Of a DNA stretch of 64,000 nt, positions 23,060-39,411 are shown in pieces. The DNA comes from Erwinia amylovora. GTDB lineage: Bacteria > Pseudomonadota > Gammaproteobacteria > Enterobacterales > Enterobacteriaceae. A model generated the notes under the pieces. That model was not told the origin of the DNA. It searched no databases and was given only the letters and a program-made list of their open reading frames with translations. Each line of letters opens with the position of its first letter. The first letter of the stretch is position 1. The translations under genes were made by a program, and so were the position numbers. The stretch lies in assembly GCF_017161565.1 (NCBI RefSeq), contig NZ_CP066796.1, forward strand, positions 1,984,001-2,048,000. Direction: 5' to 3'.

Positions 23060-23421
23060 AGCGCGCTCCTGTGGCGAGGACAGTTTGATGGCGGCTAATG
23101 TAATGTAAATCCACGATGGTGACTATCCCTGTCGACCGGAATATCAGCGGCTTACGGCGTCGTTTAGCCGAGGCTGAATGGTATCAGCTAACATAATTGA
23201 TGATCTGCATCATCTTTAAGCCGCCGCGCAACGGCTATGCTCACAAGCATCAAAGTCACTCATAAACCTGATAAAAGTCATCGTCAATCTGCTGATGCGC
23301 TGACTCGTTAAGTCGACCTTTGACAACCGAGACGCCGATCACCGGGTCTTCCGGCCAGGTCAGCAGAGACGAAGGTTTTTCTGACAGGTTTCCTCATAAA
23401 GTCTTACTTCAGGAGAGCATG

Positions 23422-26115
23422 ATGACCGTTACGAATGTTGCTGAACTCAACGCGCTGGTTGAACGTGTGAAAAAGGCCCAAAGCACCTACGCCACCTTCA
23501 CTCAACAACAGGTCGACAAGATTTTCAGGGCTGCGGCGCTGGCGGCGGCAGATGCCCGCATACCCCTGGCTAAAATGGCGGTGGCTGAATCAGGCATGGG
23601 CCTCGTCGAGGATAAAGTAATCAAAAACCACTTCGCTTCGGAATACATCTATAACGCTTACAAAGATGAAAAAACCTGCGGCATTGTGGCCAGCGATGAC
23701 ACCTTTGGCACCATCACCATCGCGGAGCCTGTCGGCATTATCTGCGCCATCGTCCCCACCACTAACCCCACCTCAACGGCTATCTTTAAAGCGCTGATTG
23801 CCCTGAAAACGCGTAACGCGGTGATCTTCTCGCCTCATCCGCGTGCCAAAGATGCGACCAGTCAGGCGGCAAACATTGTGTTGCAGGCAGCCGTTGCTGC
23901 CTGAGCACCAGCCGATATTATTGGCTGGATTGACAGCCCTTCCGTTGAACTGTCCAACCAGCTGATGCACCACCCGGATGTCAATCTGATCCTCGCTACC
24001 GGGGGGCCGGGCATGGTTAAGGCGGCATACAGTTCGGGCAAACCGGCCATCGGCGTCGGTGCAGGCAATACCCCGGTGGTGATTGATGAGTATGCAGATA
24101 TCAAGCGCGCCGTGGCCTCTGTCCTGATGTCGAAAACCTTCGATAACGGTGTCATTTGTGCTTCTGAGCAGTCGGTAATTGTCGTCGATGCTGTCTATGA
24201 CGCGGTACGCGAGCGTTTCGCCAGCCACGGCGGCTATCTGCTGCAAGGGCCGGAATTGCAGGCAGTGCAGGAGATCATATTGAAGAACGGTGCGCTGAAT
24301 GCGGCCATTGTCGGCCAGCCAGCGACTAAAATCGCCGACATGGCCGGCATCCGCGTCCCGGATAACACCAAAATTCTTATTGGAGAAGTGAGACGGGTTG
24401 ATGAGGCGGAACCGTTTGCTCACGAAAAACTGTCACCCACGCTGGCGATGTACCGGGCCAAAGACTTCAGCCAAGCGCTAACGCTGGCAGAAAAACTGGT
24501 GGCAATGGGCGGTATCGGGCATACCTCCTGCCTGTATACCGATCAGGATAATCAGCATCAACGCGTGCAAACCTTCGGCATCAGAATGAAAACGGCGCGT
24601 ATTTTGATCAATACGCCAGCCTCCCAGGGGGGAATTGGAGATCTGTACAACTTTAAGCTCGCGCCATCGCTGACGCTGGGCTGTGGTTCGTGGGGCGGTA
24701 ACTCAATCTCTGAGAACGTGGGTCCCGCACACCTGATTAACCGTAAGATCGTTGCCAAACGCGCAGAGAATATGCTGTGGCACAAGCTCCCGAAGTCCAT
24801 CTACTTCCGCCGCGGCGCGTTGCCCATCGCTCTTGAAGAGGTGGCAACCGACGGTGCGAAACGCGCGTTTATTGTTACTGACCGCTTCCTGTTCAATCAG
24901 GGCTATGCTGACCGGGCGATCGCCGTTCTTAAGGCCCACGGCCTGGAGACTGAGGTGTTTTCAGATGTGGCAGCCGATCCCACGCTGGGTATCGTACGCA
25001 AGGGTGCAGAGCAGATGCACTCATTTAAACCCGATGTGATTATCGCCATCGGCGGCGGTTCAACGATGGATGCGGCAAAAATCATGCGGGTGCTGTACGA
25101 ACATCCTGAAACCCACTTTGCCGATCTGGCACTGCGCTTTATGGACATCCGCAAACGTATCTGCCGCCTCCCGAAAATGGGCGTAAAAGCGAAGCTGATT
25201 GCCGTCACCACCACCCCGGGTAGCGGGTCTGAGGTTTCCCCGTTCGCGGTGGTCACCGACGATGCTACCGGCAAGAAATATCCGCTGGCAGACTACGCGC
25301 TGATGCCCGATATGGCGATTGTTGACGCCAACCTGGTGATGGATTTACCCCAATCCCTCTGCGCCTGTGGTGGCCTGAACGCGGTCACTCACGCGCTGGA
25401 AGCCTATGTTTCCGTGCAGGCTAACGAATATTCAGATGGCCAGGCTTTGCAGGCGCTGAAACTGTTGCAGGAATATTTGCCGGCCAGCTATCAGCAGGGG
25501 GCGCAAAACCCGCTGGCGCGCGAACGGGTGCATAACGCGGCCACCCTTGCCGGGATTGCATCTGCTAATGCCTTTCTTGGCGTGTGCCACTCGATGGCGC
25601 ACCAGCTCGGTTCAGAGTTTCATCTCGCGCATGGTTTAGCCAATGCCCTGCTCATCGGTAACGTGATTCGCTACAACGCCAACGATAACCCCACCAAGCA
25701 AACCGCTTTTAGCCAGTATGACCGTCCACAGGCGCGTCGTCGTTATGCAGAAGTTGCCGATCATCTGCGCCTGAGCGCGCCATCCGATCGCACCGCGCAG
25801 AAAATCGACAAACTGCTGGCATGGCTGGATGGCTTGAAAACCGCGCTGGGCATGCCGCAATCCATTCGTGAAGCGGGCGTGCAGGAGGCCGATTTCCTGG
25901 CAAAAGTCGACCAGCTGACCGAAAATGCTTTAGACGACCAGTGCACCGGAGCTAATCCCCGTTTCCCTCTGATTAACGAGCTGAAACAGGTGTTGCTGGA
26001 CAGCTACTACGGCCGTAAATTCACTGAAACTGCGGCTGATCGGGTCGTGGCCGTCACGCCGCCGCTGGCTGCGAAAACCGCTGAAAAAAAAGCAAAGAAC
26101 TTGAGTCAGGTGTAA
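23422..26115 (+). pseudogene. adhE: Bifunctional acetaldehyde-CoA/alcohol dehydrogenase, nonsense-interrupted
   Basis: The frame matches AdhE (891 aa in E. coli) end to end. After QAAVAA, codon 161 is TGA (23902-23904) where E. coli has Gly, and the same frame then continues ADIIGWIDSPSVELSNQLMHHPD with no indel. A GGA-to-TGA change explains it. The aldehyde dehydrogenase Cys (GVICASEQS) remains. In the alcohol dehydrogenase half the iron ligand Asp487 (GGLDAVTH) is Asn here (codon AAC, 25378-25380), while the three His ligands are kept; GGGSPMD has become GGGSTMD. The start MTVTNVAELNALV has AGGAGA 5 bp upstream. A 716-aa fragment could still begin downstream, but loss of AdhE function is most likely. 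Confidence 0.9.
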
Positions 26116-26336: not shown

Positions 26337-26356
26337 ATAAACAAAACTCATACCAG
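26337..26356 (+). promoter_or_regulatory. Putative gal regulator site, galT side
   Basis: ATAAACAAAACTCATACCAG matches 17 of 20 bases with a sequence before galB (31833-31852). It sits in an AT-rich 390-bp leader, 213 bp before the galT start. Operator function is inferred from the shared sequence only. Confidence 0.5.
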
Positions 26357-26568: not shown

Positions 26569-27948
26569 ATGAGCAATCACGATATTATCGATGTGAAAGA
26601 ATGGATAGATTCACGCCCGATATCAGGTTACCAGTGGCTGGTCCTCATTCTGTGCTTCATTATCATTATGTTTGATGGTTACGACGCGGCGGCCATGGGC
26701 TTTATTGCGCCAGCGCTGATTGAAGACTGGGGCATAAGCCATGCGGAGATGGGGCCAGTGCTTGGTGCTGCGATGTCAGGCGTGGCGCTGGGTGCACTGA
26801 TCGCTGGCCCGTGGTCGGATAAGTTTGGCCGCAAAAAAATCCTGCTTATCTCTATGGCCTGCTTTGCCTGCTTCAGCCTGATGAGCGCTTTTGCCCGCTC
26901 CCCGCTGGAGATGGGTTTGCTGCGCTTCCTGACCGGCCTCGGGCTGGGCGCGGTGATGCCTAACTGCGTTACCCTTGTCTCTGAATACATGCCGGAACGG
27001 CGCCGCAGTCTGATGATCACCGTGATGTACAGCGGCTTCAATATCGGTTCCGGGCTGGGTGGATTTATCGCCGCCGGGATATTACCCGATTATGGCTGGC
27101 AAGCCGTTCTGGGGCTTGGTGGCGCTATCCCACTGCTGATGCTGCCATTGCTGATTTGGGTCCTGCCGGAATCGGCCATGTATCTGGTGGTGCGTAGCGT
27201 CAACCGCGACAAAATTGCTGCCGCGCTGCGGCGTATCGGTGGCCAGTTCCATGCGGGTACGGCTTTCGTGCTTAACGCACCGGTGATACCGAAAAAGGCA
27301 CAGGTTCTCCAGCTGTTCACCCCCGGATATGCCGCGGGAACTTTAGTCCTCTGGCTGACCTATTTTATGGGAATGTTCGTTATCTATCTGCTGAACGGCT
27401 GGCTGCCGACCATTATGCGCTCCGGCGGCGTCACGCTGGAGCGGGCAGCTATCGTCGCGGGCCTGTTCCAGCTGGGGGGTACCCTTGGCGGTTTACTGGT
27501 TGGCGCGCTGATGGACCGCCTCAGGGCGAAGTATGTTATCGGCCTGTTTTATTTACTGGGCAGTCTTTGTCTGGTTTCTCAGGGGATCTGGAGCTTCGGC
27601 CCGGCATTGCTGGCACTGCTGGTGTTTCTTGCCGGCGTCTGCATCAACGGCGCCCAGACGGGATTACAGGCATTTTCACCGATGTTTTATCCCACTGAGA
27701 TGCGCGCCACCGGCGTGTGCTGGATGCACGGCATCGGCCGCAGCGGGGCAATTATCAGCTCTTCCCTCGGCGGCGTGCTGCTTGGCATTTTCCCCGGCCA
27801 GACGGCAATTTTTATTGTTTTGTCGCTCCCGGCATTATTGGCGGCGCTTTCCATCACCCGACATCACCCCGCACAGGTTGCGCGCCAAATCACAGGTATT
27901 GACCTTGACTGCCTGCCGCCCCTGATGCGTACCCCAAACGATCGCTGA
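26569..27948 (+). CDS. galT: MFS aromatic-acid transporter (probable gallate importer)
   Basis: 459 aa, twelve hydrophobic segments. MFDGYDAAAMGFIAPAL in helix 1 is the signature of the aromatic acid:H+ symporter family (PcaK, BenK, GalT), and GPWSDKFGRKKIL is MFS motif A. It starts 16 bp before the gallate dioxygenase stop-start cluster, so gallate is the likely substrate. I use ATG 26569 (MSNHDIIDVKEW); an upstream in-frame ATG at 26515 would add 18 polar residues. It is probably the first gene of galT-galA-lactonase-dehydroquinase. Confidence 0.88.
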   Translation: MSNHDIIDVKEWIDSRPISGYQWLVLILCFIIIMFDGYDAAAMGFIAPALIEDWGISHAEMGPVLGAAMSGVALGALIAGPWSDKFGRKKILLISMACFACFSLMSAFARSPLEMGLLRFLTGLGLGAVMPNCVTLVSEYMPERRRSLMITVMYSGFNIGSGLGGFIAAGILPDYGWQAVLGLGGAIPLLMLPLLIWVLPESAMYLVVRSVNRDKIAAALRRIGGQFHAGTAFVLNAPVIPKKAQVLQLFTPGYAAGTLVLWLTYFMGMFVIYLLNGWLPTIMRSGGVTLERAAIVAGLFQLGGTLGGLLVGALMDRLRAKYVIGLFYLLGSLCLVSQGIWSFGPALLALLVFLAGVCINGAQTGLQAFSPMFYPTEMRATGVCWMHGIGRSGAIISSSLGGVLLGIFPGQTAIFIVLSLPALLAALSITRHHPAQVARQITGIDLDCLPPLMRTPNDR

Positions 27949-27964
27949 AAAGAGGTTACCACTT

Positions 27965-29224
27965 ATGGCAAAAATTATCGGCGGGCTGGCTGTTTCTCAC
28001 ACTCCGACCATAGGCTTTGCAGTCGACCATCATAAACAGCAGGAGGAAGGCTGGGCTCCGATCTTCGATGGCTTTGCCCCGATGCAGCGCTGGCTGGAGG
28101 AGAAAAAACCCGACGTGCTGCTTTACGTGTTTAACGATCACGTCACCTCTTTCTTCTTCGATCACTACTCGACCTTTTTGCTGGGTATTGACGAGCAATA
28201 TGCCGTCGCGGACGAAGGCGGTGGCCCGCGCGATCTGCCGTCGGTCAGAGGCCATGCCGCGCTGTCACAGCATATTGGTGCCAGCCTGATGGCCGACGAA
28301 TTTGATATGTCATTCTTCCAGGATAAGCCACTGGACCACGGTCTGTTCTCGCCGCTGTCAGCGCTGATACCGTATCAGGACGGCTGGCCGATGCAGGTAG
28401 TGCCCCTGGCAGTGGGCGTATTACAGTTCCCCATCCCGACCGCCCGGCGCTGTTACAGGCTGGGCCAGGCGCTGAAGCGTGCGGTAGAAAGCTTCCCACA
28501 GGATCTGAAGGTGGCGATAGTGGCAACCGGCGGCATGTCGCATCAGGTTCACGGCGAGCGCTGTGGCTATAACAATCCACAATGGGATGCTCAGTTCATC
28601 GACCTGCTGGTCAATGACCCGCAGCGCCTGACGGAGTTAACGCTGGCCGAATACGCCACGCTGGGCGGCCTGGAGGGTGCGGAGGTGATAATGTGGTTGA
28701 TCATGCGCGGTGCGCTGTCGGCCAACGTGCAAAAGCTGCATCAGGATTATTACCTGCCGTCGATGACCGGGATTGCCACCTTGATCCTCGAAAATCAGTC
28801 ACGGGAAGCCCCGGTGGATGTGCACCAGCGTCAGCGGGATAAAATCAATCTTCAGCTCAACGGCGTGGACAAGCTGCCGGGTACTTACCCGTTCACCCAG
28901 GCTCGCAGCCTGAAGGCGATACGTATCAATCGCTTCCTGCACCGGATGATCCAGCCCGAGTGGCGTACACGTTTTCGTACTGCGCCGCAGTCGCTGTATG
29001 CTGAAGCCGGGTTGAGCGCGGAGGAACAAGCGCTGATCAATCAGCTCGACTGGCGCGGCATGATCCATTATGGCGTCAGTTTCTTCCTGCTGGAAAAACT
29101 CGGGGCGGTGGTCGGCGTTTCCAATCTGCATATCTATTCGGCGATGCGCGGCGAGACGCTTGAACAGTTCCAGCAGACGCGAAATCAACAGGTTCTTTAT
29201 TCCGTAGCGGGGAAAGCAGACTGA
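27965..29224 (+). CDS. galA: Gallate dioxygenase (class III extradiol)
   Basis: 419 aa, the size of Pseudomonas GalA and Sphingobium DesB. The N-terminal two-thirds is a LigB-like catalytic domain: Fe(II) ligands His12 (AVSHTPTIGF), His59 (FNDHV) and a Glu near 240 (GAEVIMW), with the acid-base His193 (GGMSHQVHG). The C-terminal third is a LigA-like domain fused in one chain, as in gallate dioxygenases and unlike the two-subunit LigAB. It opens the gallate ring with O2 to 4-oxalomesaconate. Its TGA overlaps the next ATG. Confidence 0.93.
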   Translation: MAKIIGGLAVSHTPTIGFAVDHHKQQEEGWAPIFDGFAPMQRWLEEKKPDVLLYVFNDHVTSFFFDHYSTFLLGIDEQYAVADEGGGPRDLPSVRGHAALSQHIGASLMADEFDMSFFQDKPLDHGLFSPLSALIPYQDGWPMQVVPLAVGVLQFPIPTARRCYRLGQALKRAVESFPQDLKVAIVATGGMSHQVHGERCGYNNPQWDAQFIDLLVNDPQRLTELTLAEYATLGGLEGAEVIMWLIMRGALSANVQKLHQDYYLPSMTGIATLILENQSREAPVDVHQRQRDKINLQLNGVDKLPGTYPFTQARSLKAIRINRFLHRMIQPEWRTRFRTAPQSLYAEAGLSAEEQALINQLDWRGMIHYGVSFFLLEKLGAVVGVSNLHIYSAMRGETLEQFQQTRNQQVLYSVAGKAD

Positions 29225-30060
29225 TGTTTACTCAACCAATTATTGACTGCCATCATCACGTATTCGATCCGGCTCGATTCCCCTGGTCGGCGGAGAGCGC
29301 TTACAACCCGCAAGGGCACGAGCTGGCCACGCCGGACTACTATCGCGCGGTGATGACGGCGTACAACATCCGGCATTCGCTGATCGTCGGCCCGACTTCG
29401 GGCTATAACACCGATAACCGCTGCCTGCTGGATACCCTGCGGCGGGGCGAGGGGCGTTTCAAAGGCATCGCCGTGGTGCACAGGGATACCAACGTGCAAA
29501 CGCTGGCAGATTTGCAATCACAGGGCGTGGTCGGCATTGCGCTAAATGTGGCGATGCTCGGCACCGACCCTTTTTTGCACCTTGATCAGCTGATGTCCGA
29601 CCTGGCCGACCTGAACCTTTTTGCCCAAATCCAGGTACAGGATGACCAGCTGTTGGCGCTGCTGCCGCTGCTGGCCCGCACCCGCACCCGGATCCTGTTT
29701 GACCACTGCGGCCGCCCTGATGTCAGCGCCGGGCTGCGGCAGCCGGCATTCCGGGCGTTGTTGTCGCTGGCGGGCGGCGAGCGCTGCTCGGTGAAGCTCT
29801 CTGGCCTGGCGAAGTTTTCGCGCCAGCCTTATCCGTTCAGCGATGGCCACCCTTACCTGCTGGCGCTGCTGGATGCCTTCGGTGCTGAAAACTGTATGTG
29901 GGGTTCTGACTGGCCATTCCTGCGCGCCAGCGAGCGGATGGATATGGGCACCCAACTGCTGCTGGTTGATCAGCTGATCCCCGATGACAAAACGCGCCGT
30001 CAGGTGCTGTGGGAAACGCCTGAACGACTGTTTAACTTCGCATCTGAAGGAGCGTTATGA
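29224..30060 (+). CDS. Amidohydrolase-family lactonase, probable 2-pyrone-4,6-dicarboxylate hydrolase
   Basis: 278 aa TIM-barrel amidohydrolase-2 protein: DCHHHVFD metal motif at the N-terminus, DHCGRPDV in the middle and CMWGSDWPF with the catalytic Asp near the C-terminus. This pattern matches LigI-type 2-pyrone-4,6-dicarboxylate hydrolases. The ring-cleavage product of gallate can cyclise to this pyrone, so the enzyme would return it to 4-oxalomesaconate. It is translationally coupled to galA on one side and overlaps the dehydroquinase start by 4 bp. Other lactones (for example muconolactone-like) are possible substrates. Confidence 0.8.
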
Positions 30061-30485
30061 AAACCATTTATGTTCTTAACGGGCCGAACCTCAACCTGCT
30101 CGGCACCCGTGAACCTGAAACCTACGGTTCAGCGACGCTGGCAGATATCGAAACGCTGTGCCGCGACACGGCGGCGGAGCTGGATGTCGACATTGTGTTT
30201 CGCCAAACCAATCATGAAGGCCAGATGGTGGAATGGATCCAGCAGTCGCGTACCCAGGCTCAGGCGCTGGTGATCAATCCGGCGGCATGGACGCACACCT
30301 CAGTGGCAATACGTGACGCCGTAACGGCCGTTTCTCTGCCGCTGTGGGAGGTTCACATCACCAACGTGCACAGCCGGGAACCGTTTCGCCATCACTCTTA
30401 CCTGTCGGATGTGGCGCAAGGGGTGATTTGCGGCTACGGCATTCGCGGCTATCGCTATGCGCTGCTTGAAGCGGCACAGGATTAG
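30057..30485 (+). CDS. aroQ: Type II 3-dehydroquinate dehydratase
   Basis: 142 aa, normal for the dodecameric type II enzyme. [17 protein letters not shown] holds the catalytic Tyr and Arg loop; [29 protein letters not shown] and [17 protein letters not shown] hold the Asn, Glu and His residues. It interconverts 3-dehydroquinate and 3-dehydroshikimate. Its place inside a gallate operon suggests a catabolic role in making dehydroshikimate from quinate-type substrates, rather than aromatic amino-acid biosynthesis; this is inference. Confidence 0.9.
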
Positions 30486-30524
30486 CGGCTCATCCCCCGG
30501 TGGTTCGGTTGAGCGATCCGCCGG

Positions 30525-31793
30525 CTAAATTGGCTTAAGTCGCCTTTCTCCCGCCGGGTCAGGGGCATCTCTGCCCTGCCCGCATACCTCGCGCAGACAG
30601 CCGATCAGCGCTTGCGCCGCCGGGGAATGCAGGCAGCCAGCACGCACCGTCAGGCCGATAGCCCGTTCGGTGTTAGCTAACGCCACCGGCAGTGCCACCA
30701 GCGCACCACAGGCCAGTTCGACCTCTAACTGGTGAGCGGAAACCGCCGCCAGCATATCCGACTGCATCAGCAGGCCGCGTACCAGCGCCAGATCGCCGGT
30801 TTCCACCACCGGATTGGCCGCCGGGATACCCATCGCCCGGAAGCTGTCATCTAACAAATGACGGGCTGGCGTTGCCGATCGCGGCAAGACCCAACGCGCC
30901 TGGCGCAGATCCTGATGACTGACAGCCTTTCCAGCCAGCGGATGGTCGTGCCGCGCCAGCAGTATCATGCGTTCGGAAAACAGCGTTTCCCGCGTGACAT
31001 CCAGCGCATCCTCATCGCGGCGCAGCGCGCCGAAAATGAAATCGATATCTCCGGCACGCATCTCCGAGGCCAGCAGGGCAAAAGCGCTTTCGCTGGTCAC
31101 CACCCGCACGCCGGGATAACGCGCGGTAAGCATCACTATCGCCTGCGGCAATATGCGCGTGCGCCCCAGCGGCAGCGCGCCCACCCGCACCGTGCCTTCC
31201 AGCACCCCACATCGCGCGGCAATATCTGCCGGGATATGGCGCAGTTCGTTGAGCGCACGCCGGATACCGGCTTCAATCTCGCGCCCGGCAAGTGACGGCA
31301 TCATGCCGTGCGGCGTCCGCTCTAAAAGCGCCACCCCGGCGCCGTTTTCCAGTACCTTGAGCGCCGCGCTCACCGCTGGCTGACTTAAACCCAGCCGTGC
31401 CGCCACCGACTGCATATGCCGGGTCTGGCACAGGGTAATAAATATTTGCAGGCGGCGCACATTGAACAACCACAGTGGCTCAATATCTCCGCGCGGACTG
31501 GCGCGCCCCTGTAATTTTGCCAGCTGCAGGGGGATCTGAAGCAGTTCGTCTACTGCCCGGTGAGCGCGTGGCAGCACGCATTTACCGAAGTCTGTCAGCA
31601 TCATGCCTCCGGCATGACGTTCAAACAGCGGCACCGCTAAAGTGAGTTCCAAATCACGAATCGATCGGGTAATGGCTGACTGAGTGCGAAATAATTCATC
31701 TGCCGCCTTAGAGACGCTTCCCTGAGCAACAACCTGCCTGAATGCCCTGATTTGCATCAGGTTTACCAACTCGCCTGCCTGTTCTGACGCCAT
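30525..31793 (-). CDS. LysR-type regulator with two tandem HTH domains (GalR-like)
   Basis: 422 aa, about 100 residues longer than typical LysR proteins. Residues 12-70 form one LysR HTH (LMQIRAFRQVVAQGSVSKAAD, SAITRSIRDLE, LFERHAGGMMLT). Residues 109-170 form a second, different LysR HTH (LFNVRRLQIFITLCQTRHMQ, SQPAVSAALKVLE, LLERTPHGMMPSLAG). The effector-binding fold follows (about 195-400). It is divergent from galB and converges on the galTA operon, the usual location of a gallate-pathway activator. The start could instead be ATG 31757, which would shorten the first HTH. Confidence 0.85.
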   Translation of the reverse strand: MASEQAGELVNLMQIRAFRQVVAQGSVSKAADELFRTQSAITRSIRDLELTLAVPLFERHAGGMMLTDFGKCVLPRAHRAVDELLQIPLQLAKLQGRASPRGDIEPLWLFNVRRLQIFITLCQTRHMQSVAARLGLSQPAVSAALKVLENGAGVALLERTPHGMMPSLAGREIEAGIRRALNELRHIPADIAARCGVLEGTVRVGALPLGRTRILPQAIVMLTARYPGVRVVTSESAFALLASEMRAGDIDFIFGALRRDEDALDVTRETLFSERMILLARHDHPLAGKAVSHQDLRQARWVLPRSATPARHLLDDSFRAMGIPAANPVVETGDLALVRGLLMQSDMLAAVSAHQLEVELACGALVALPVALANTERAIGLTVRAGCLHSPAAQALIGCLREVCGQGRDAPDPAGERRLKPI

Positions 31794-31832
31794 CCTTTAC
31801 CGCCCTTTTCCGCCTGAGACCGGACCCGCAAT

Positions 31833-31852
31833 ATAAATAAAACGCATACCCG
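31833..31852 (+). promoter_or_regulatory. Putative gal regulator site, galR-galB side
   Basis: ATAAATAAAACGCATACCCG, 17 of 20 identical to the element upstream of galT (26337-26356). It lies 70 bp before galB and 40 bp before the regulator start, where a LysR protein would bind to control both. Confidence 0.55.
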
Positions 31853-31921
31853 CTGCAATCAAATGAATTATCCCGCCTGCACGCCGGGTGACAGCATGGA
31901 AAAAACGCCGAGGAGAATGCC

Positions 31922-32662
31922 ATGACCGAAAATACTGCCAACAAAACCGCGCTGGTGGTCAGCGCCCACTCTGCCGATTTCGTCTGGCGCGCCGGTGGGG
32001 CCATCGCGCTGCACCATGCACAAGGTTACCAGGTCCACGTCGTTTGTCTGTCGTTTGGCGAACGAGGAGAATCAGCGAAGCTGTGGCGCAAGGGCGAGAT
32101 GAGCGAAGAAAAGGTTAAGGCATCACGCCGCGAAGAAGCCCAGGCTGCCGCAGAGATCCTCGGTGCCAGCATTGAGTTCTTTGACCTTGGCGATTATCCC
32201 CTGCGCGCCGACAAAGAGACGCTGTTTCGTCTGGCCGACGTCTATCGCCGGGTACAGCCGCACTTTGTGCTGAGCCATTCGTTGCACGATCCCTACAACT
32301 ACGATCATCCACTGGCGACTCATCTGGCCCAGGAAGCGCGCATTATCGCCCAGGCAGAGGGTTATCGCCCTGGCGAGAAGATTATTGGTGCGCCCCCGCT
32401 GTACTGCTTTGAACCCCATCAGCCGGAACAGTGCAACTGGAAGCCGGACGTGCTGCTGGATATCACCCGCGTCTGGGACAAAAAGTATCAGGCGATCCAA
32501 TGCATGGCCGGCCAGGAACATCTTTGGCAATACTACACCCGCGTGGCGCAGCAGCGCGGCGTGCAGGCTAAACGTAATGTCGGCATCACCAGCCAGCGCG
32601 ACATCAGTTACGGCGAAGGCTATCAGAGCATCTTCCCGCGGGTAACGGAGGATCTGGCATGA
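31922..32662 (+). CDS. galB: 4-oxalomesaconate hydratase (PIG-L/LmbE fold)
   Basis: 246 aa; the zinc-binding motif of the PIG-L family appears as [14 protein letters not shown], followed by [12 protein letters not shown] and a later NYDHPLAT. Pseudomonas putida GalB belongs to this fold and hydrates 4-oxalomesaconate to 4-carboxy-4-hydroxy-2-oxoadipate. It is the first gene of the rightward gal operon; GGAG precedes the ATG and its stop overlaps galC by 4 bp. Confidence 0.9.
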
Positions 32663-33372
32663 GCATCATCGGTAAAAAAGGCGTGGTGGTGCGCCATATT
32701 GTGCGGGCCGCCGGCAAGGATATTGCATCGCTTGGCGCCGCCGGGGTGGCCACCGTTCATGAAGCACAGGAGCGTAAAGGCTTAATGGATGCGGCGATCC
32801 GACCAATCCAGCGCGACAACGCCATTGCCGGTAGTGCGGTCACCGTGCTGGTCGCGCCCGGCGATAACTGGATGTTTCATGTCGCCGTTGAGCAGTGCCA
32901 GCCGGGAGATATTCTGGTAGTGGCTCCCACTTCTCCCTGCATCGACGGCTTTTTTGGCGATCTGCTGGCTACCTCACTTCAGGCACGCGGCGTCATCGGT
33001 TTAGTGGCGGATCTCGGGGTACGTGATACCCGCACCCTGCGCGCAATGGGTTTCGCCGTCTGGTCGCGGGCGGTGTATGCCCAGGGCACGGTGAAAGAGA
33101 CGCTGGGTTCGGTCAATGTGCCGCTGGTGTGCGCCGGGCAGCTGGTTTGGCCCGGTGATGTTATCGTCGCCGACGACGATGGCGTGGTGGTGGTGGCGCG
33201 GCAACAGGCCGCAGCAGTGGCCACCAGCGCCCGTCAGCGCGGCGAGCGGGAAGAAAGCAAACGCGTCCGCCTGGCCAACGGCGAACTGGGGCTGGATATC
33301 TATCAGATGCGCGCGCGTCTGGCAGAGAAAGGGCTGCGCTATGTCGACAACCTTGAAGGTTGGGAGGAATAA
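32659..33372 (+). CDS. galC: 4-carboxy-4-hydroxy-2-oxoadipate aldolase (RraA-like)
   Basis: 237 aa RraA/HMG-aldolase fold. [24 protein letters not shown] holds the conserved glycine helix and the R-D pair that binds the metal and pyruvate enolate. It cleaves the hydrated product to pyruvate and oxaloacetate. It is coupled to galB upstream and separated by 1 bp from galD. Confidence 0.9.
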
Positions 33373-33373
33373 C

Positions 33374-34462
33374 ATGCGCCAGCGCCGGATCCCTTGCCTG
33401 CTGATGCGTGGCGGCACCTCGAAAGCCGCCTGTTTTCTCGCCGCCGACCTGCCGCAAGACCCCGGGCTGCGCGACCGCGTACTGCTGGCGGTGATGGGCT
33501 CGCCCGATATCCGCCAGATAGACGGATTAGGCGGCGCAGATCCGCTCACCAGCAAGGTCGCGATTGTCCAGCCTTCTACCCGGGCGGACGCGGATGTTGA
33601 TTACCTGTTTGCCCAGGTCGATGTCGATGTCGCCCATGTCGACTACGGCCAGAACTGCGGCAATATCCTTGCGGCGATGGGGCCGTTTGCCCTGGAGCGT
33701 GGCCTGGTCAGCGCACAGGGTGAACGCAGCGCGATACGCATTTTTATGCAAAACACCGGGCAAATTGCAGTGGCGGAGTTTGCCACCCCCAATGGCCAGA
33801 TGGATTACGATGGCGAGCTGAAAATTGACGGCGTACCGCGCAGTGCCGCAGAGATTGTGCTTAATTTTCAAAATATTGCCGGGTCAAGCTGCGGGGCACT
33901 GTTGCCCACCGGTCAGGCCAGAGATCGCATCGATCATATCGAAGTGACCTGCATCGACAACGGTATGCCGGTGGTGCTGGTGCGAGCCGACTCGCTTGGC
34001 CGCAGCGGTTATGAAAGCCGCGAGCAGCTGGACGCCGATGAAGCGTTGAAAAGTCGCCTGGAATCGATTCGTCTGCAGGCCGGGCCGCGTATGAACCTCG
34101 GTGATGTCAGCCAGCGCACGGTGCCGAAAATGACCCTGCTTGCTGAACCGCGCAACGGCGGAGCCATCAGTTCGCGCACCTTCATTCCCCACCGCTGTCA
34201 CGCCTCGATTGGCGTTTTTGGCGCGGTGAGCGTGGCTACCGCCTGCCTGATCCCCGGCAGCGTGGCACACAGGCTGGCGCGCACCGGCAGTGAAAACAGT
34301 CAGCGCCTGAGCGTTGAGCACCCCGGCGGAGAGTTCAGCGTACGACTCCAGCGAGATCACGCCGGCCAGCTTGCAGGCTGCGGCCTGCTGCGTACCGCCC
34401 GGCTGATTTTTGCCGGTGAGGTGCTGATCCCGGGTTCAGTCTGGCCCATTAGCGCGGAGTAG
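33374..34462 (+). CDS. galD: 4-oxalomesaconate tautomerase (PrpF family)
   Basis: 362 aa, the size of Pseudomonas GalD. RIPCLLMRGGTSKAACF, DVAHVDYGQNCGNILAA (Cys nucleophile region) and the second-half DYDGELKIDG and RTVPKMTLL match the PrpF/diaminopimelate-epimerase-like fold. It converts keto and enol forms of 4-oxalomesaconate. I use ATG 33374, one base after the galC stop; the frame extends upstream inside galC without meaning. Confidence 0.9.
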   Translation: MRQRRIPCLLMRGGTSKAACFLAADLPQDPGLRDRVLLAVMGSPDIRQIDGLGGADPLTSKVAIVQPSTRADADVDYLFAQVDVDVAHVDYGQNCGNILAAMGPFALERGLVSAQGERSAIRIFMQNTGQIAVAEFATPNGQMDYDGELKIDGVPRSAAEIVLNFQNIAGSSCGALLPTGQARDRIDHIEVTCIDNGMPVVLVRADSLGRSGYESREQLDADEALKSRLESIRLQAGPRMNLGDVSQRTVPKMTLLAEPRNGGAISSRTFIPHRCHASIGVFGAVSVATACLIPGSVAHRLARTGSENSQRLSVEHPGGEFSVRLQRDHAGQLAGCGLLRTARLIFAGEVLIPGSVWPISAE

Positions 34463-34466
34463 CAAG

Positions 34467-35354
34467 ATGAGGATAACCGTTATTGGATTTGGCGAGGCGG
34501 GCGGTATTTTCGCCGCCGATCTGCAGCAGCAGCCGTCGCTTCAGCTGACAGTTTGGGATGTCAAAAACACCCGGCCCGCCAGTTCGGCTGCCATGCAGCT
34601 CAAATCATCAGCCTGCGGAGTGCAGCTGGCGGCATCGCTGGCTGAAGCCTTGCAGGACGCAGAGATTATTTTCTCCACCGTCACGGCCGCAGAAGCGCTG
34701 AACGTCGCCCGGCACACCGCCCCGTTTTTGCGGCCGGGTCAAACCTTTCTTGATTTCAATTCGGTGGCCCCTGAGACCAAACGCGCTGCCGCCAGGCTGA
34801 TTGGCGCACAGGGGGCCGCTTATATCGACGTAGCGGTAATGGCCCCGGTGCCGCCCAAACGGCTGGCCACCCCGTTGCTGCTCGGCGGCAGCCAGGGTGC
34901 AACGGTCAACGACCTGCTGCAAAGTCTGGGGCTGAACAGCCGCCTGTACAGTCTGCAAGTGGGTGAAGCCTCCGCCATCAAGATGTGCCGCAGCGTGATG
35001 ATCAAAGGACTTGAGGCGCTCACCACCGAATGCCTTAGCGCGGCACGCCGTTACGGCGTGGAGCAGGCGGTAGTCGATTCGCTACATGCCAGTTTCCCCT
35101 CGCTGGGCTGGGACGACCAGCTGCCCCACTACCTGATTAGCCGGGTAGCCGAGCACGGCCAGCGCCGCGCCGAGGAGATGCAGGAAGTGGTGAAAACTCT
35201 GCATGATGTGAATGTGGCCCCGGCAATGAGCGCGGCGACAGCCGCTACCCAGCAGGGACTGGTGGACGCGCTAAAGGCCCACGATGTGACATACGCCCAG
35301 CTTACGCCGTTTACCTGGCAAGCGGCTGTGGATAAAATTCATCATGATCAATAA
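34467..35354 (+). CDS. NAD(P)-dependent oxidoreductase, 6-phosphogluconate-dehydrogenase-like (DUF1932)
   Basis: 295 aa. An N-terminal Rossmann fold (VIGFGEAGGIFA at residues 4-15; IIFSTVTAAEA; FLDFNSVAP) is followed by a helical DUF1932-type C-terminal domain (VGEASAIKMCRSVMIKGLEAL). The family resembles beta-hydroxyacid dehydrogenases. It is 4 bp downstream of galD, so it belongs to the gal operon, yet the standard gallate pathway has no NAD step. It may act on a keto or hydroxy acid leaking from the route. Substrate unknown. Confidence 0.8.
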   Translation: MRITVIGFGEAGGIFAADLQQQPSLQLTVWDVKNTRPASSAAMQLKSSACGVQLAASLAEALQDAEIIFSTVTAAEALNVARHTAPFLRPGQTFLDFNSVAPETKRAAARLIGAQGAAYIDVAVMAPVPPKRLATPLLLGGSQGATVNDLLQSLGLNSRLYSLQVGEASAIKMCRSVMIKGLEALTTECLSAARRYGVEQAVVDSLHASFPSLGWDDQLPHYLISRVAEHGQRRAEEMQEVVKTLHDVNVAPAMSAATAATQQGLVDALKAHDVTYAQLTPFTWQAAVDKIHHDQ

Positions 35355-35492
35355 TTTATACTGAGAACCAGGGCATTTAAATGACAGATGACGTGCACAA
35401 TTGCCTAACCGGCGATGGGCAGTTCCTCTTATCCGCAACCAGGCTGACAGCGCACCGCCGCTCGCCACAGAAGAAAAGTGGGAAATCATCCG

Positions 35493-35960
35493 ATGAAGAC
35501 GTATAAACGGTTTGCCAGCGGCCTGTTACTGGCCATGCTCAGTCAGGTGCACGCTGCGCAGCTCGACAATCGCCAAACCGCGCTGGTGATTAAGCATGTC
35601 GCTGCCTCCCTCAAAAACGAAAAAAGTACCGGCTGCGTGGCGGTGCTTGATGCCAGCGGCACATTGCTCGCCTTTCAGCGCTTTGATGGCGCCACGCCGG
35701 GATGCGTGGATGCCGCTATCGGTAAAGCCCGCACTTCTGCGCTTTACCGCACACCTTCGTTAAAATTTATGCAGCGTTTGCAAAATGGCGAAACCGCCGT
35801 GCTGGCCATCCCTCATGCGCTTGCGCTTGGCGGTGGCTACCCGTTGACTTTGCGACATGAAGTGGTCGGCGCTCTCGGCGTCAGTACGCCCAGCCAGCAA
35901 CTGGATAATCAGGCTTCACAGGCTGCGGCCGAGGCCCTGAACTCACCGGCCGCTGATTAA
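35493..35960 (+). CDS. Secreted HbpS/GlcG-like haem-binding family protein
   Basis: 155 aa with a Sec signal peptide (MKTYKRFASGLLLAMLSQVHA-AQ) and a DUF336 domain (about residues 28-150: GCVAVLDASGTLLAFQRFDGA, IGKARTSALY, GGGYPLTLRHEVVGALGVS). Periplasmic members bind haem or cofactors. It lies 9 bp before the dehydrogenase subunits, so it may help their assembly or the cytochrome; that is inference. The upstream 138-bp gap could hold a promoter. Confidence 0.8.
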   Translation: MKTYKRFASGLLLAMLSQVHAAQLDNRQTALVIKHVAASLKNEKSTGCVAVLDASGTLLAFQRFDGATPGCVDAAIGKARTSALYRTPSLKFMQRLQNGETAVLAIPHALALGGGYPLTLRHEVVGALGVSTPSQQLDNQASQAAAEALNSPAAD

Positions 35961-35969
35961 GGAGTTTCT

Positions 35970-36494
35970 ATGCGCGCCCTTTCACGCCGCCGGTTACTGA
36001 CCGGCACGGGGGGCCTGCTGGTGGCTGGCGCCCTGATGAAGGCTTTCTCCGTCCGCTTTATCGCCAGTCCACCGCTGGCCGCTGCCGTTACGCCGTCACA
36101 CAGCTTTATACAGCTTTCCCGCGCGCTGACCGGCATGGCGCAGCCTGATGCGCTGCTGGCACAGCGGCTTTACAGCTGGCTGTACGCCGACAATCCCCTT
36201 CTGGACACCGCGCTGGATGAGCTTAATGCTCTGCTGGCGGCCCACCCCGGTACCCACGGCGCCGCGCTGCTGACGCTGCTCGCGCAGCAGCCAGCGGCGC
36301 TACGCGAGCTGTATCAGACGCTGGTTTCAGGCTGGTATCTCGGGGTGGTTGGCCCGCTGCCGCGCCCGCAGTGCATCGCCTTTGAAAATATCGTCAGCTA
36401 TCGGCTGGTGAAAAACTCGCTGTTACCCCCAAGCTACGCGCCGGGAGAACCGAATTTCTGGACACGGCCGCCAGCAAGGAGTTCGCATGTCTGA
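35970..36494 (+). CDS. Small subunit of membrane-bound FAD dehydrogenase (sorbitol dehydrogenase family)
   Basis: 174 aa with a twin-arginine signal (SRRRLLTGTGGLLVAGAL), so it and its FAD partner are probably exported folded. The rest is helical (FIQLSRALTG, VVGPLPRPQCIAFENIVSYRLV) and ends YAPGEPNFWTRPP, typical of the FAD-SLDH small subunit. It overlaps the large-subunit gene by 8 bp. Confidence 0.82.
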   Translation: MRALSRRRLLTGTGGLLVAGALMKAFSVRFIASPPLAAAVTPSHSFIQLSRALTGMAQPDALLAQRLYSWLYADNPLLDTALDELNALLAAHPGTHGAALLTLLAQQPAALRELYQTLVSGWYLGVVGPLPRPQCIAFENIVSYRLVKNSLLPPSYAPGEPNFWTRPPARSSHV

Positions 36495-38088
36495 ATCACT
36501 TAGCGCCGATGTGGTGGTGATCGGCGCCGGTATTGCCGGTTCTCTGGCCGCGCTGAAAATGGTGAAAGCGGGGGCGACGGTGCTGATGCTGGAGTCCGGC
36601 CCCGAGATCAAACGCGATCTCGCCGTGGAAGCCTTCCGTAACTCACCGTTTAAAGGCGATTTTACCGAGCCTTTCCCCGCGCAGCCCTGGGCTCCTCAGC
36701 CGAAATTCATTCCTGACGATAACAACTATCTGATCCAGAAAGGCCCGGATCCCTATCGCGCCCAGTATCTGCGCGGCACGGGGGGAACCACCTGGCACTG
36801 GGCCGGTCAGGCGTTCCGCCTGTTGCCGAACGATATGCGTATCAGATCGCTATACGGCGTGGGGCGTGACTGGCCAATCAGCTATGAAGAGCTGGAACCC
36901 TGTTATATCGATGCCGAATACCAGATGGGGGTTTCCGGTGACAGCGACCTCGATTCGCCGCGTTCACGCCCCTACCCGCTGCCGGGCATTCCGCTGCCTT
37001 ACGGCTTTGAGCGCCTGAAGCAGCGCCTTGCGCCGCTGGGCTATGAGGTAGGGATTGGCCCACAGGCACGTAACAGTATTCCTTTCGATGGCCGCCCGGC
37101 CTGCTGCGGTAATAACAATTGTATGCCGGTATGCCCGATTGATGCCCAGTATCATGGCGGTATATCGGCGCGTAAGGCGCTGGACGCCGGGGTGAAGATT
37201 GTCGCTAATGCGGTGGTATATCGTATTGAGGCGGATGAGAAAGGGGTGATCCAGGCGGTGCATTATTTTGACCGCAACAAAACCAGTCACCGCGTTACCG
37301 GCCGTCAATTTGTCCTGACCGCCAACGGTATTGAAAGCCCGAAAATTCTGCTGCTCTCCACCAGCGAACGTTACCCCAACGGCATCGCCAACAGCTCCGG
37401 TATGGTCGGTCGTCATCTGATGGACCACCCGGGTTCTTCCGTTGAGTTTTATGCCGATGAGCCCATGTGGTCTGGCCGGGGACCGATGCGCCCGGGCAGT
37501 ATCAACAATATGCGTGACGGCAATTTCCGCGGGCAACGTTCAGCGCTGCGCATCGATGTGGCCAATACGTCACCGATACGCTATCTGACCGAACGCCTGA
37601 TACGCCAGGGTTATTACGGTCAGGCGCTGAACGATAAGTTGGCTTTCCAGTCCGAGCGCTTCGTTCAGCTGAAGTGCCTGCTGGAGATGCTGCCCGACCC
37701 GGAAAACCGCGTCAGCCTCAGTACCAGCGAGAAAGATGCCTGGGGCATTCCACGCCTTGAGGTCAGATACCGCTTTTCGAAATATGTACATCGCGGCTAC
37801 GACCAGTCGCTGGTGGACTTTCAACGCATGGTGAAAGAGATGGGCGGCAGCGATGCGGTCTACAGCAAGCGCGGTATCTATGACAACAACCAGCATATTA
37901 CCGGCACCATGATCATGGGCAGTAATGCCCACGACTCAGTGGTGGACGGGCACTGCCGCACCCACGATCACCCTAATCTGTTTATCGCCGGCACGGGTAT
38001 TATGCCTTCCGCCTCGACGGTGAACTCAACCCTGACCGGAACGGCGCTGGCGCTGCGCATGGCCGATAGCGTACTGGCGAGCCTGTAA
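36487..38088 (+). CDS. GMC-family FAD dehydrogenase, large catalytic subunit
   Basis: 533 aa. Rossmann FAD motif VVVIGAGIAGSLAALKMVKAG (about residues 8-28), RGTGGTTWHWAGQAFR, a Cys-rich loop CCGNNNCMPVCPIDAQYHGG, and C-terminal catalytic region QHITGTMIMG with NSTLTGTALALRMAD. This is the pattern of gluconate 2-dehydrogenase, sorbitol and 2-ketogluconate dehydrogenases. It would oxidise a hydroxyl in the periplasm and pass electrons to the cytochrome gene product. The substrate cannot be read from sequence. Confidence 0.88.
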   Translation: MSESLSADVVVIGAGIAGSLAALKMVKAGATVLMLESGPEIKRDLAVEAFRNSPFKGDFTEPFPAQPWAPQPKFIPDDNNYLIQKGPDPYRAQYLRGTGGTTWHWAGQAFRLLPNDMRIRSLYGVGRDWPISYEELEPCYIDAEYQMGVSGDSDLDSPRSRPYPLPGIPLPYGFERLKQRLAPLGYEVGIGPQARNSIPFDGRPACCGNNNCMPVCPIDAQYHGGISARKALDAGVKIVANAVVYRIEADEKGVIQAVHYFDRNKTSHRVTGRQFVLTANGIESPKILLLSTSERYPNGIANSSGMVGRHLMDHPGSSVEFYADEPMWSGRGPMRPGSINNMRDGNFRGQRSALRIDVANTSPIRYLTERLIRQGYYGQALNDKLAFQSERFVQLKCLLEMLPDPENRVSLSTSEKDAWGIPRLEVRYRFSKYVHRGYDQSLVDFQRMVKEMGGSDAVYSKRGIYDNNQHITGTMIMGSNAHDSVVDGHCRTHDHPNLFIAGTGIMPSASTVNSTLTGTALALRMADSVLASL

Positions 38089-38097
38089 GGAGTTCGG

Positions 38098-39411
38098 ATG
38101 AAAGGCTTCATATTACAGGTTTCCCTGGCATGCATCCTTGTGCAGAGCGGCTTTGTGCCGGCAGCGCAGAATAGCGACATCATCAGGCGTGGTGAATATC
38201 TGGCCCGTGCCGGGGATTGTACCGCCTGCCACACCGCCACCAACGGCCCGCTGTTTGGCGGCGGATTTGCGGTCAGCACCCCGTTTGGCCAGATCTGGGC
38301 GCCAAATATTTCATCTGATAAACAGTTCGGCATCGGTAGCTGGAGCGACGACCAGTTTGTGGCGGCAGTGCGCGACGGGATCAATAGAAACGGCGAGCAA
38401 CTCTATCCGGCAATGCCTTACGACTCTTTCACCAAAATAAAGCGTGCGGATGTGCTGGCGATAAAAGCCTATATTGTGTCGTTACCGGGCGTACATCAGC
38501 CGTCACCGCAGACCAGCCTGCCGTTTCCGTTTAATCAGCGCTGGGGGCTGCGCTTCTGGAAGTGGATCAACTTCGACAGCGGCGAGCTGCGGGAGGATCC
38601 GTTGCAAAGCTCCGCATGGAACAACGGGCGCTATCTGGTTGAAGCCCTGGCTCATTGCGGCACCTGCCATACGCCGCGCAATATCACGCTGGGGATGGAT
38701 AATGATAATGCCCTGGCCGGCGGTGACCTTGGCGGTTGGGCCGCCTTTAATATCACTCCGCACCAGCAGGCGGGCATCGGCAGCTGGAGCCAGCAACAGC
38801 TGGTGACCTATCTGAAAACCGGCTTTGTGGTCGAAAAGGCCAGCGCTTCTGGATCGATGGCCGAAGCGATTGAGCACAGTCTGCAATATCTCCACGATAG
38901 CGACCTTAACGATATTGCCATCTACCTGAAGAGCGTGCCAGCGCGCGGAAATAGCGCTCAAATTCGTGACCGCAGCGTCTGGGGGCGTCCTTCGAACGTT
39001 TTAAGCGCGCTGCGTGGCGCTGATGAAGAAACATGGCGGACACAGCCGGGCGCGCGGGTATTTGCCGGTAATTGTGCCAGTTGCCACGCAGCAGACGGTT
39101 CCGGTTCCGGCAAGGGCCTGCATGCTTACCCGTCGCTGTTTCACCACACCACCACCGGAGCGGAGGATGCACGCAATCTGGTATCGGTGGTGCTAAACGG
39201 CGTGCATCGCCATATGCAGCAGGGTGAGATCTTTATGCCAGCCTTTGCTGCCGAACTGGATGACCAGCAGGTGGCCGATGTCAGTAATTTCGTTATCCGG
39301 CAGTTTGGCAACCCGGCTGCGGCTGGAGTAACGGCGAAGCAGGTGAAAGCGCTGCGTAAGGATGCAAAGCTGGCATCGCCACCCGTTTATATGCAGGGTG
39401 ACACGCCATAA
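38098..39411 (+). CDS. Tri-haem cytochrome c subunit of the dehydrogenase
   Basis: 437 aa with a signal peptide and three CxxCH haem-binding sites: GDCTACHTA (about residue 40), CGTCHTP (about 190) and NCASCHAA (about 325). This is the membrane-associated electron-transfer subunit of three-component GMC dehydrogenases, passing electrons to ubiquinone. It is 9 bp after the FAD subunit and is the last gene of the island. Confidence 0.92.
   Translation: MKGFILQVSLACILVQSGFVPAAQNSDIIRRGEYLARAGDCTACHTATNGPLFGGGFAVSTPFGQIWAPNISSDKQFGIGSWSDDQFVAAVRDGINRNGEQLYPAMPYDSFTKIKRADVLAIKAYIVSLPGVHQPSPQTSLPFPFNQRWGLRFWKWINFDSGELREDPLQSSAWNNGRYLVEALAHCGTCHTPRNITLGMDNDNALAGGDLGGWAAFNITPHQQAGIGSWSQQQLVTYLKTGFVVEKASASGSMAEAIEHSLQYLHDSDLNDIAIYLKSVPARGNSAQIRDRSVWGRPSNVLSALRGADEETWRTQPGARVFAGNCASCHAADGSGSGKGLHAYPSLFHHTTTGAEDARNLVSVVLNGVHRHMQQGEIFMPAFAAELDDQQVADVSNFVIRQFGNPAAAGVTAKQVKALRKDAKLASPPVYMQGDTP

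Follow-up and report, generated by a model that had tools for sequence, protein, structure and literature searches.

A gallate unit of Erwinia amylovora with an attached dehydroquinase and flavocytochrome dehydrogenase: a possible branch for quinate

The 64,000-nucleotide stretch of Erwinia amylovora DNA considered here, referred to below as the window (assembly GCF_017161565.1, contig NZ_CP066796.1, positions 1,984,001 to 2,048,000; G000:C1:1984001-2048000), holds a block of 13 genes at 26569-39411, flanked by adhE and tdk, that is predicted to degrade gallate. Gallic acid is a building block of plant tannins. The genes run in the order galT-galA-ligI-aroQ, a divergent galR, galBCD-duf1932 and hbpS-gmcSLC, and all of their open reading frames (ORFs) are open. 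Our comparison of genomes shows that the ligI-like gene, aroQ and hbpS-gmcSLC are kept or lost together among gal-bearing enterobacteria, even where they are unlinked. There is good support for assigning the GMC-family dehydrogenase encoded by gmcSLC to the gallate system, from this co-occurrence and from the GalR-type boxes that precede hbpS in some relatives. We read the whole as a gallate unit with an attached branch, in which GmcSLC would oxidize quinate and AroQ would then make dehydroshikimate, and we give this reading slightly less than an even chance.

Co-occurrence of the added genes with the gallate core

From 372 relatives of GalA, 80 loci were kept for comparison. The full 13-gene order occurs in nine of them (L017-L024 and L035, the last with galT in two frames), and the variant is not peculiar to one genome; an earlier note on this DNA knew of no described system with this combination in an enterobacterium. 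The ligI-like gene and aroQ directly follow galA in 22 of the 80. Loci of Klebsiella, Raoultella, Kluyvera, Leclercia, Enterobacter sp. JUb54, Erwinia phyllosphaerae and Chimaeribacter have the core and the DUF1932 gene without ligI or aroQ. The nearest named GalA loci (91-92%) are those of Erwinia aphidicola, of a record named Enterobacter ludwigii and of Pantoea. Upstream flanks vary between lineages in the eight loci compared, and the downstream end of the block, cut off in most of these loci, is seen in fewer (the window, L062, L181 and separate gmc blocks).

The records themselves call for some care in places. In that of Enterobacter ludwigii EnVs2 (L017), the gal unit and its upstream flank are Pantoea-like and the label looks doubtful, as does that of CP125156 (L096), which is called a plasmid yet measures 5.37 Mb. 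In a Winslowiella iniecta record (L039:8549-11257) and in genome G023 (L014), galT and galA (68% and 79-80%) occur a second time as a pair, unaccompanied by the other genes of the unit.

Three samples of genomes bear on the dehydrogenase. The first consists of 23 gal-bearing enterobacterial genomes chosen from the 80 loci, gal-bearing Pseudomonas being left aside. An ortholog of gmcL (78-90%) is present in all 14 that have ligI-aroQ and in none of the nine that do not, in which the best match reaches 57%. The gmc block lies on another contig or far from galA in Rahnella, Rouxiella, Serratia sp. M24T3 and Erwinia aphidicola, and in G197 it is separated from galA by 0.5 Mb. The second sample comprises 60 genomes, that of the window included. 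Here, the gmcL ortholog (82-100%) is found in 10, exactly those with the island aroQ; nine of these carry two aroQ genes, whereas in G004 the island copy is the only one. The unit of G004 (L185:4283-14515) is decayed: no galD, duf1932 or hbpS was found there, and gmcL is broken by a TAA codon.

The third sample was drawn evenly from the family and contains 295 genomes. It was scanned with E limits of 1e-150 for galA, 1e-70 for ligI and 1e-240 for gmcL; the best four gmcL candidates per genome were scored, and three of the ligI matches run over a TAA. Matches were obtained for galA in 20 genomes, for ligI in 11 and for gmcL in 12, these last being the same 11 and G086. Within the 20 galA genomes, gmcL accompanies ligI in 11 of 11 cases and occurs in none of the nine genomes without it. 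G086 corresponds by its coordinates to Sodalis praecaptivus, in which galBCD-duf1932 and gmc lie far apart on one plasmid and galA has no match. Its gmc block (L129:9073-14897; 74.5%) has no annotated hbpS and adjoins genes for a LuxR-type regulator and a cytosine permease. The earlier note had raised the question of whether the dehydrogenase block is widespread without gal genes, and in this sample it is not: of the 12 gmcL genomes, 11 carry both galA and ligI, and the remaining one has galBCD. The combination occurs in at least five genera. Fisher tests give 6e-6 within the galA genomes and 4e-19 overall, values that ignore shared ancestry and come from samples that overlap.

The gmcL orthologs form a single clade (26 of 52 distinct sequences; support 0.75). 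Across the 23 genomes, the distances of galA, ligI, aroQ and gmcL correlate with r of 0.85-0.91, a value that none of 999 permutations reached for any pair, and species history contributes to this correlation.

GalR-type boxes and regulation of the unit

The window has two GalR-type boxes on its forward strand, one upstream of galT at 26337-26354 (ATAAACAAAACTCATACC) and one in the galR-galB gap at 31833-31850 (ATAAATAAAACGCATACC), each with no mismatch to the shared pattern. The second includes AACGCAT, an element predicted by others for GalR of Pseudomonas putida, whose inducer is given as 4-oxalomesaconate in the extracts available of that report (PMC9942251). The pattern, ATAAAYAAAACKCATACC, has two exact sites in the window, against 0.08 expected at up to three mismatches. 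When distinct upstream regions of the collected loci were surveyed with the pattern ending in RCC, sites with at most two mismatches were found in 82 of 90 galB regions and 43 of 75 galT regions, compared with 0 of 3,820 mononucleotide shuffles. Among 26 distinct regions upstream of hbpS, the reversed box is exact in nine, has two mismatches in one and has at least five in the other 16.

A genome-wide search of 27 chosen genomes, allowing one mismatch, returned exactly three sites in each of G005, G017, G023 and G320, at galT, galB and hbpS; in G005 the galT box is 1.1 Mb away from the other two. The genome of the window has two sites only, at galT and galB. Five of the six gal-free genomes searched have no site and the sixth, G009, has one with a mismatch, and a reversed control pattern matched twice in the 27 genomes, with one hit each in G017 and G075. 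Extra sites with one mismatch lie before an MFS gene (27% to GalT) and inside a glycosidase-like gene in G018, and before a permease-like gene in G074; G004 has one. In G075, a block of GMC paralogs at 53% (L220:5643-9409) has a GalR-type box with one mismatch upstream.

We predict that the 13-gene unit is controlled by GalR, with the boxes as predicted sites. In the window hbpS begins 138 bases 3' of the DUF1932 gene, with no same-strand terminator-like site between, and for this reason our guess is that hbpS-gmc is transcribed by read-through from galB. A scan of the window gave 8 promoter-like sites against 7.4 in shuffles and 13 terminator-like sites against 15.1, and is uninformative for that reason. 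The GalR-type box predicts targets of GalR genome-wide, and such predictions are directly testable.

If ligI-aroQ and hbpS-gmc had simply come with the gal genes as neighbors by descent, with no joint function with gallate, then the recent relatedness of many of the compared genomes would be in keeping, as would distance correlations of the size that common descent alone would give and the Rahnella and Rouxiella gmc blocks that have no GalR-type box. Such an origin accounts poorly for joint presence and absence across several genera, unlinked arrangements included, and for hbpS boxes in four genomes whose only other sites are those of galT and galB, and we consider it very unlikely.

A candidate branch for quinate

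The dehydrogenase block opens with hbpS (35493-35960, on the forward strand, as are all of the 13 genes except galR), which encodes a protein of 155 residues in the Pfam HbpS-like family with, by eye, an apparent signal peptide; ATG at 35493 is the most likely start, with GTG at 35478 as the alternative. It is followed by gmcS (35970-36494) for a small subunit of 174 residues with a twin-arginine-like start, again by eye, and a Pfam FAD-SLDH match of 128.6 bits (cut-off 24.2); by gmcL (36487-38088) for the GMC flavoprotein subunit of 533 residues (Pfam GMC_oxred_C and GMC_oxred_N); and by gmcC (38098-39411) for a cytochrome c subunit of 437 residues (Pfam Cytochrom_C), with CxxCH motifs at 41, 187 and 326. 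By eye, the complex looks to be exported. Matches in the PDB are to the small subunits of glucose dehydrogenase (GDH) and fructose dehydrogenase (FDH) for GmcS, to GDH (566 bits) and FDH (528 bits) for GmcL, which has cysteines at 206, 207, 212 and 216, and to GDH beta (382 bits) and the FDH cytochrome (354 bits) for GmcC. Gluconate 2-dehydrogenase was considered and is not favored, because the small subunit is of the FAD-SLDH family and the structural matches are to the glucose and fructose enzymes. Plasmid neighborhoods of GMC relatives offered no clue to the substrate.

The other enzyme of the proposed branch is encoded by aroQ (30057-30485), a type II 3-dehydroquinate dehydratase of 142 residues (TIGR01088 199.6 bits, cut-off 169.9). 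Dehydroquinase acts between dehydroquinate and dehydroshikimate. The island gene is separate from the housekeeping copy (L182), to which its product is 52% identical, and its catalytic motifs, in which we assume the usual residue roles, are kept in the alignment. Three Rahnella loci (L030:12623-14978, L031:12612-14970 and L033:12609-14961) have two extra genes between aroQ and galR, apparently for a glycosyltransferase and a polysaccharide polymerase.

In the scheme that we propose, GalT would import gallate, GalA would open its ring, and GalD, GalB and GalC would carry the cleavage product to pyruvate and oxaloacetate. The exported flavocytochrome GmcSLC would oxidize quinate to 3-dehydroquinate and pass the electrons to the respiratory chain, and AroQ would convert 3-dehydroquinate to 3-dehydroshikimate, which would enter aromatic biosynthesis or, perhaps through AroE as happens in plants, be turned into gallate for cleavage by GalA. 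The ligI-like enzyme would open a lactone, HbpS would assist the periplasmic enzyme, and the DUF1932 protein would be part of the gal core.

Quinate is a plausible substrate. Shikimate, which the earlier note had also proposed, would by itself make AroQ superfluous: its oxidation would yield dehydroshikimate directly and bypass AroQ, whereas oxidation of external quinate supplies dehydroquinate. FDH, one of the relatives of the complex, acts on a sugar with a six-membered ring, of which it oxidizes a secondary alcohol, and quinate resembles this ring substrate in shape, an analogy that is no proof. Elsewhere, aroQ stands with AroE-type genes. In G055 it lies beside one, together with a 4,5-cleavage cluster (LigB- and LigA-like genes, ligI-like, galC and galD, with DUF1932 and galB nearby), and in Pseudomonas sp. 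A-1, aroQ, aroE and apparent TRAP transporter genes are upstream of galA; the AroE of the latter passes the shikimate dehydrogenase subfamily cut-off, and that of G055 falls below all cut-offs shown. The Erwinia type is missing such an AroQ-adjacent partner, and the GMC complex is therefore likely to be the oxidizing partner of AroQ. A single AroE match was obtained in nine of the 10 unit-bearing relatives, the genome of the window included, against two or more in 13 of the 26 members of the genus that lack the unit.

A number of observations weigh against the scheme as a whole. Among solved structures, GmcL is closest to glucose dehydrogenase, and the ligI-like protein is unexplained by a quinate branch. 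Shared ancestry inflates the co-occurrence counts. A box before hbpS was looked for in the window, Rahnella, Rouxiella and Serratia and was absent. An intradiol dioxygenase (PF00775), with no match in the genome of the window, is present in five of the 10 unit-bearing relatives, where a protocatechuate route is possible. The proposal of the earlier note that the dehydroquinase and dehydrogenase extend the gallate route backward stands as regards their joint membership of the unit, which co-occurrence bears out for unlinked arrangements too, but not as regards its last step: none of the 13 genes is one for dehydroshikimate to gallate (dehydroshikimate dehydratase and pyrroloquinoline quinone (PQQ)-dependent quinate dehydrogenase were outside the search). 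In plants, shikimate dehydrogenase makes gallate from dehydroshikimate, according to the extracts available (PMC13039779), and by analogy the single AroE here might do the same. The DUF1932 protein was considered for this step and is not supported, because duf1932 follows galD in loci without aroQ or GMC genes (Klebsiella, Raoultella, Leclercia, Kluyvera and Chimaeribacter); an open-access literature search on the domain gave only unrelated papers.

The ligI-like gene (29224-30060; 278 residues; Pfam Amidohydro_2) encodes an amidohydrolase, presumed to be a lactonase. It has in common with LigI, the 2-pyrone-4,6-dicarboxylate (PDC) hydrolase (PDB 4d8l, 4di8), the amidohydrolase family and the metal ligands (His-x-His, His and Asp at positions 10, 12, 161 and 229). 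LigI, however, has Arg124 and Arg130, which we take to be its substrate arginines, and the protein of the window has Ala in place of the first and a Leu/Met region without Arg at the position of the second. With both absent, hydrolysis of PDC is doubtful and a role as a plain PDC hydrolase is weakened, so that of the earlier description as a LigI-like lactonase the family and metal site hold and the substrate site does not. No export signal is visible by eye in the protein of the window. Five Pseudomonas loci (L066, L069, L077, L086 and L091) have a ligI-like homolog (58-60%) beside galT; the two that were read (L069:7143-8168, in two frames, and L086:7233-8255) have a twin-arginine-like start.

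This protein would find a place if the substrate of GmcSLC were the sugar of galloyl-glucose, be it glucose or a different aldose, and the ligI-like enzyme opened the aldonolactone so formed. In that case the block would be a gallotannin unit and AroQ would serve only the shikimate pathway. FAD (flavin adenine dinucleotide)-dependent glucose dehydrogenase is the closest solved relative of both GmcL and GmcC, a protein without the PDC-binding arginines may take another lactone, and the two Pseudomonas homologs beside galT have export-like signals. Yet such a scheme leaves AroQ unexplained despite its retention with the GMC genes, and places an apparently exported GmcSLC with a ligI-like protein that, by eye, has no export signal. 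Tannase (PF07519) has no match in the genome of the window, and the matches above cut-off, in G004, G012 and G018 only of the 60 genomes, do not track the unit. We judge a sugar substrate to be improbable.

The regulon and co-occurrence evidence would fit equally a different cyclic polyol or acid whose breakdown leads to dehydroquinate or gallate, such as shikimate, a galloyl ester or a substituted quinate, in place of free quinate, and sequence cannot fix the substrate. Shikimate again makes AroQ needless, and for an ester the unit contains no hydrolase; we think a substrate of this kind unlikely.

The gallate core and comparison with known systems

The core begins with galT (26569-27948; 459 residues; Pfam MFS_1), an MFS importer gene that has galA after it in most of the 80 loci, and galA (27965-29224; 419 residues; NCBIfam 838 bits, cut-off 412), for a gallate dioxygenase of fused LigB-LigA type. 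The LysR-type regulator gene galR (30525-31793, reverse strand; 422 residues; Pfam HTH_1 twice and LysR_substrate) diverges from galB, as it does in Pseudomonas loci. Then come galB (31922-32662; 246 residues; Pfam PIG-L), for 4-oxalomesaconate hydratase; galC (32659-33372; 237 residues; PRK09262 384 bits, cut-off 179), for 4-carboxy-4-hydroxy-2-oxoadipate (CHA) aldolase; galD (33374-34462; 362 residues; OMA_tautomer 542 bits, cut-off 440), for 4-oxalomesaconate tautomerase, its start taken as 33374 although the mechanical ORF begins upstream at 33116; and the gene for the DUF1932 protein (34467-35354; 295 residues; Pfam DUF1932 and NAD_binding_2), a 6-phosphogluconate dehydrogenase-like oxidoreductase. 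Names follow NCBIfam or Pfam matches above cut-off, except that of GalB, which matched no specific NCBIfam model and is named from the annotated galB product of Klebsiella aerogenes plasmid pC9_001 (83% identity). About 7 kb on from its gal core, this conjugative plasmid (L097:8602-25345) carries a PQQ dehydrogenase annotated as of the glucose/quinate/shikimate family. Further Pfam matches above cut-off in the block are RraA-like, PrpF, LigB and LigA. All 13 genes lie where the earlier note had placed them.

GalA aligns end to end with DesB, with Glu377, Asn387, Tyr391 and Tyr412 at identical positions. The choice of substrate in DesB depends on Glu377, and the other three residues hold the carboxylate, according to the extracts available (PMC3962378). 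Because all four are kept, GalA should use gallate and not protocatechuate. It is the one GalA match in its genome, in a search that did not extend to more distant LigB-family enzymes. Gallate degradation by a Pseudomonas-type galABCD set, as first proposed for this block, is well supported by the model scores, the DesB residues and the GalR-type boxes.

Several genes overlap (galA/ligI by 1 base, ligI/aroQ by 4, galB/galC by 4 and gmcS/gmcL by 8). In a host genome of 3.84 Mb, the block has a G+C content of 59.5%, with 55.4% in the left flank and 52.3% in the right, which is compatible with acquisition and no proof of it. In adhE (23320-26115), an in-frame TGA at 23902-23904 splits the alcohol/aldehyde dehydrogenase gene into two ORFs.

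The gal core is already known, and the new part is the addition of the ligI-like gene, aroQ and hbpS-gmc. Among the papers listed in searches of the open-access literature, which leaves most subscription papers out, none was seen to describe a gallate cluster with a GMC dehydrogenase or a dehydroquinase, or a flavin quinate dehydrogenase. To our knowledge, only PQQ and NAD(P) (nicotinamide adenine dinucleotide (phosphate)) quinate dehydrogenases are known. We offer the substrate of GmcSLC as a hypothesis. The fuller claim, that it is a periplasmic, cytochrome c-linked flavin quinate dehydrogenase on a GalR-tied route from quinate through dehydroquinate and dehydroshikimate to gallate, and not to protocatechuate, is possible though rather doubtful. 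Plants commonly defend themselves with gallate esters, those of quinate and of glucose, and enterobacteria associated with plants or insects encounter these compounds. If the complex does act on quinate, a single system would consume both halves of galloylquinic acids; quinate dehydrogenases would gain a third type of cofactor, and quinate a route by way of gallate. Irrespective of the substrate, the comparison ties an unstudied flavocytochrome clade to the gallate system, and this tie is directly testable.

The closest known counterpart of the core is the galTAPRBCD cluster of P. putida KT2440 with its regulator GalR, which, in the extracts available (PMC9942251), has the same GalT, GalA, GalR, GalB, GalC and GalD, the divergent galR and galB and the AACGCAT-bearing box. 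In those extracts the porin gene galP lies between galA and galR, whereas none is among the 13 genes here, and the ligI-like, aroQ, DUF1932, hbpS and gmcSLC genes added here are absent. The dehydrogenase block recalls the three-subunit FAD fructose and glucose dehydrogenases, as the small, GMC and three-heme cytochrome families stand here in the same order; unlike in those enzymes, gmcL falls in a separate ortholog clade that is kept with gallate genes. The source organisms are, we take it, Gluconobacter for the fructose enzyme and Burkholderia for the glucose enzyme. Quinate catabolism of the qui/qsu/qut type uses a type II dehydroquinase, and a catabolic second AroQ is present there as here. 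It differs from the present unit in the oxidizing enzyme, which would here be a GMC complex, with no dedicated NAD-type AroE in nine of the 10 unit-bearing relatives, and in the ring that is opened, which is protocatechuate in the qui/qsu/qut systems and would be gallate in the Erwinia unit.

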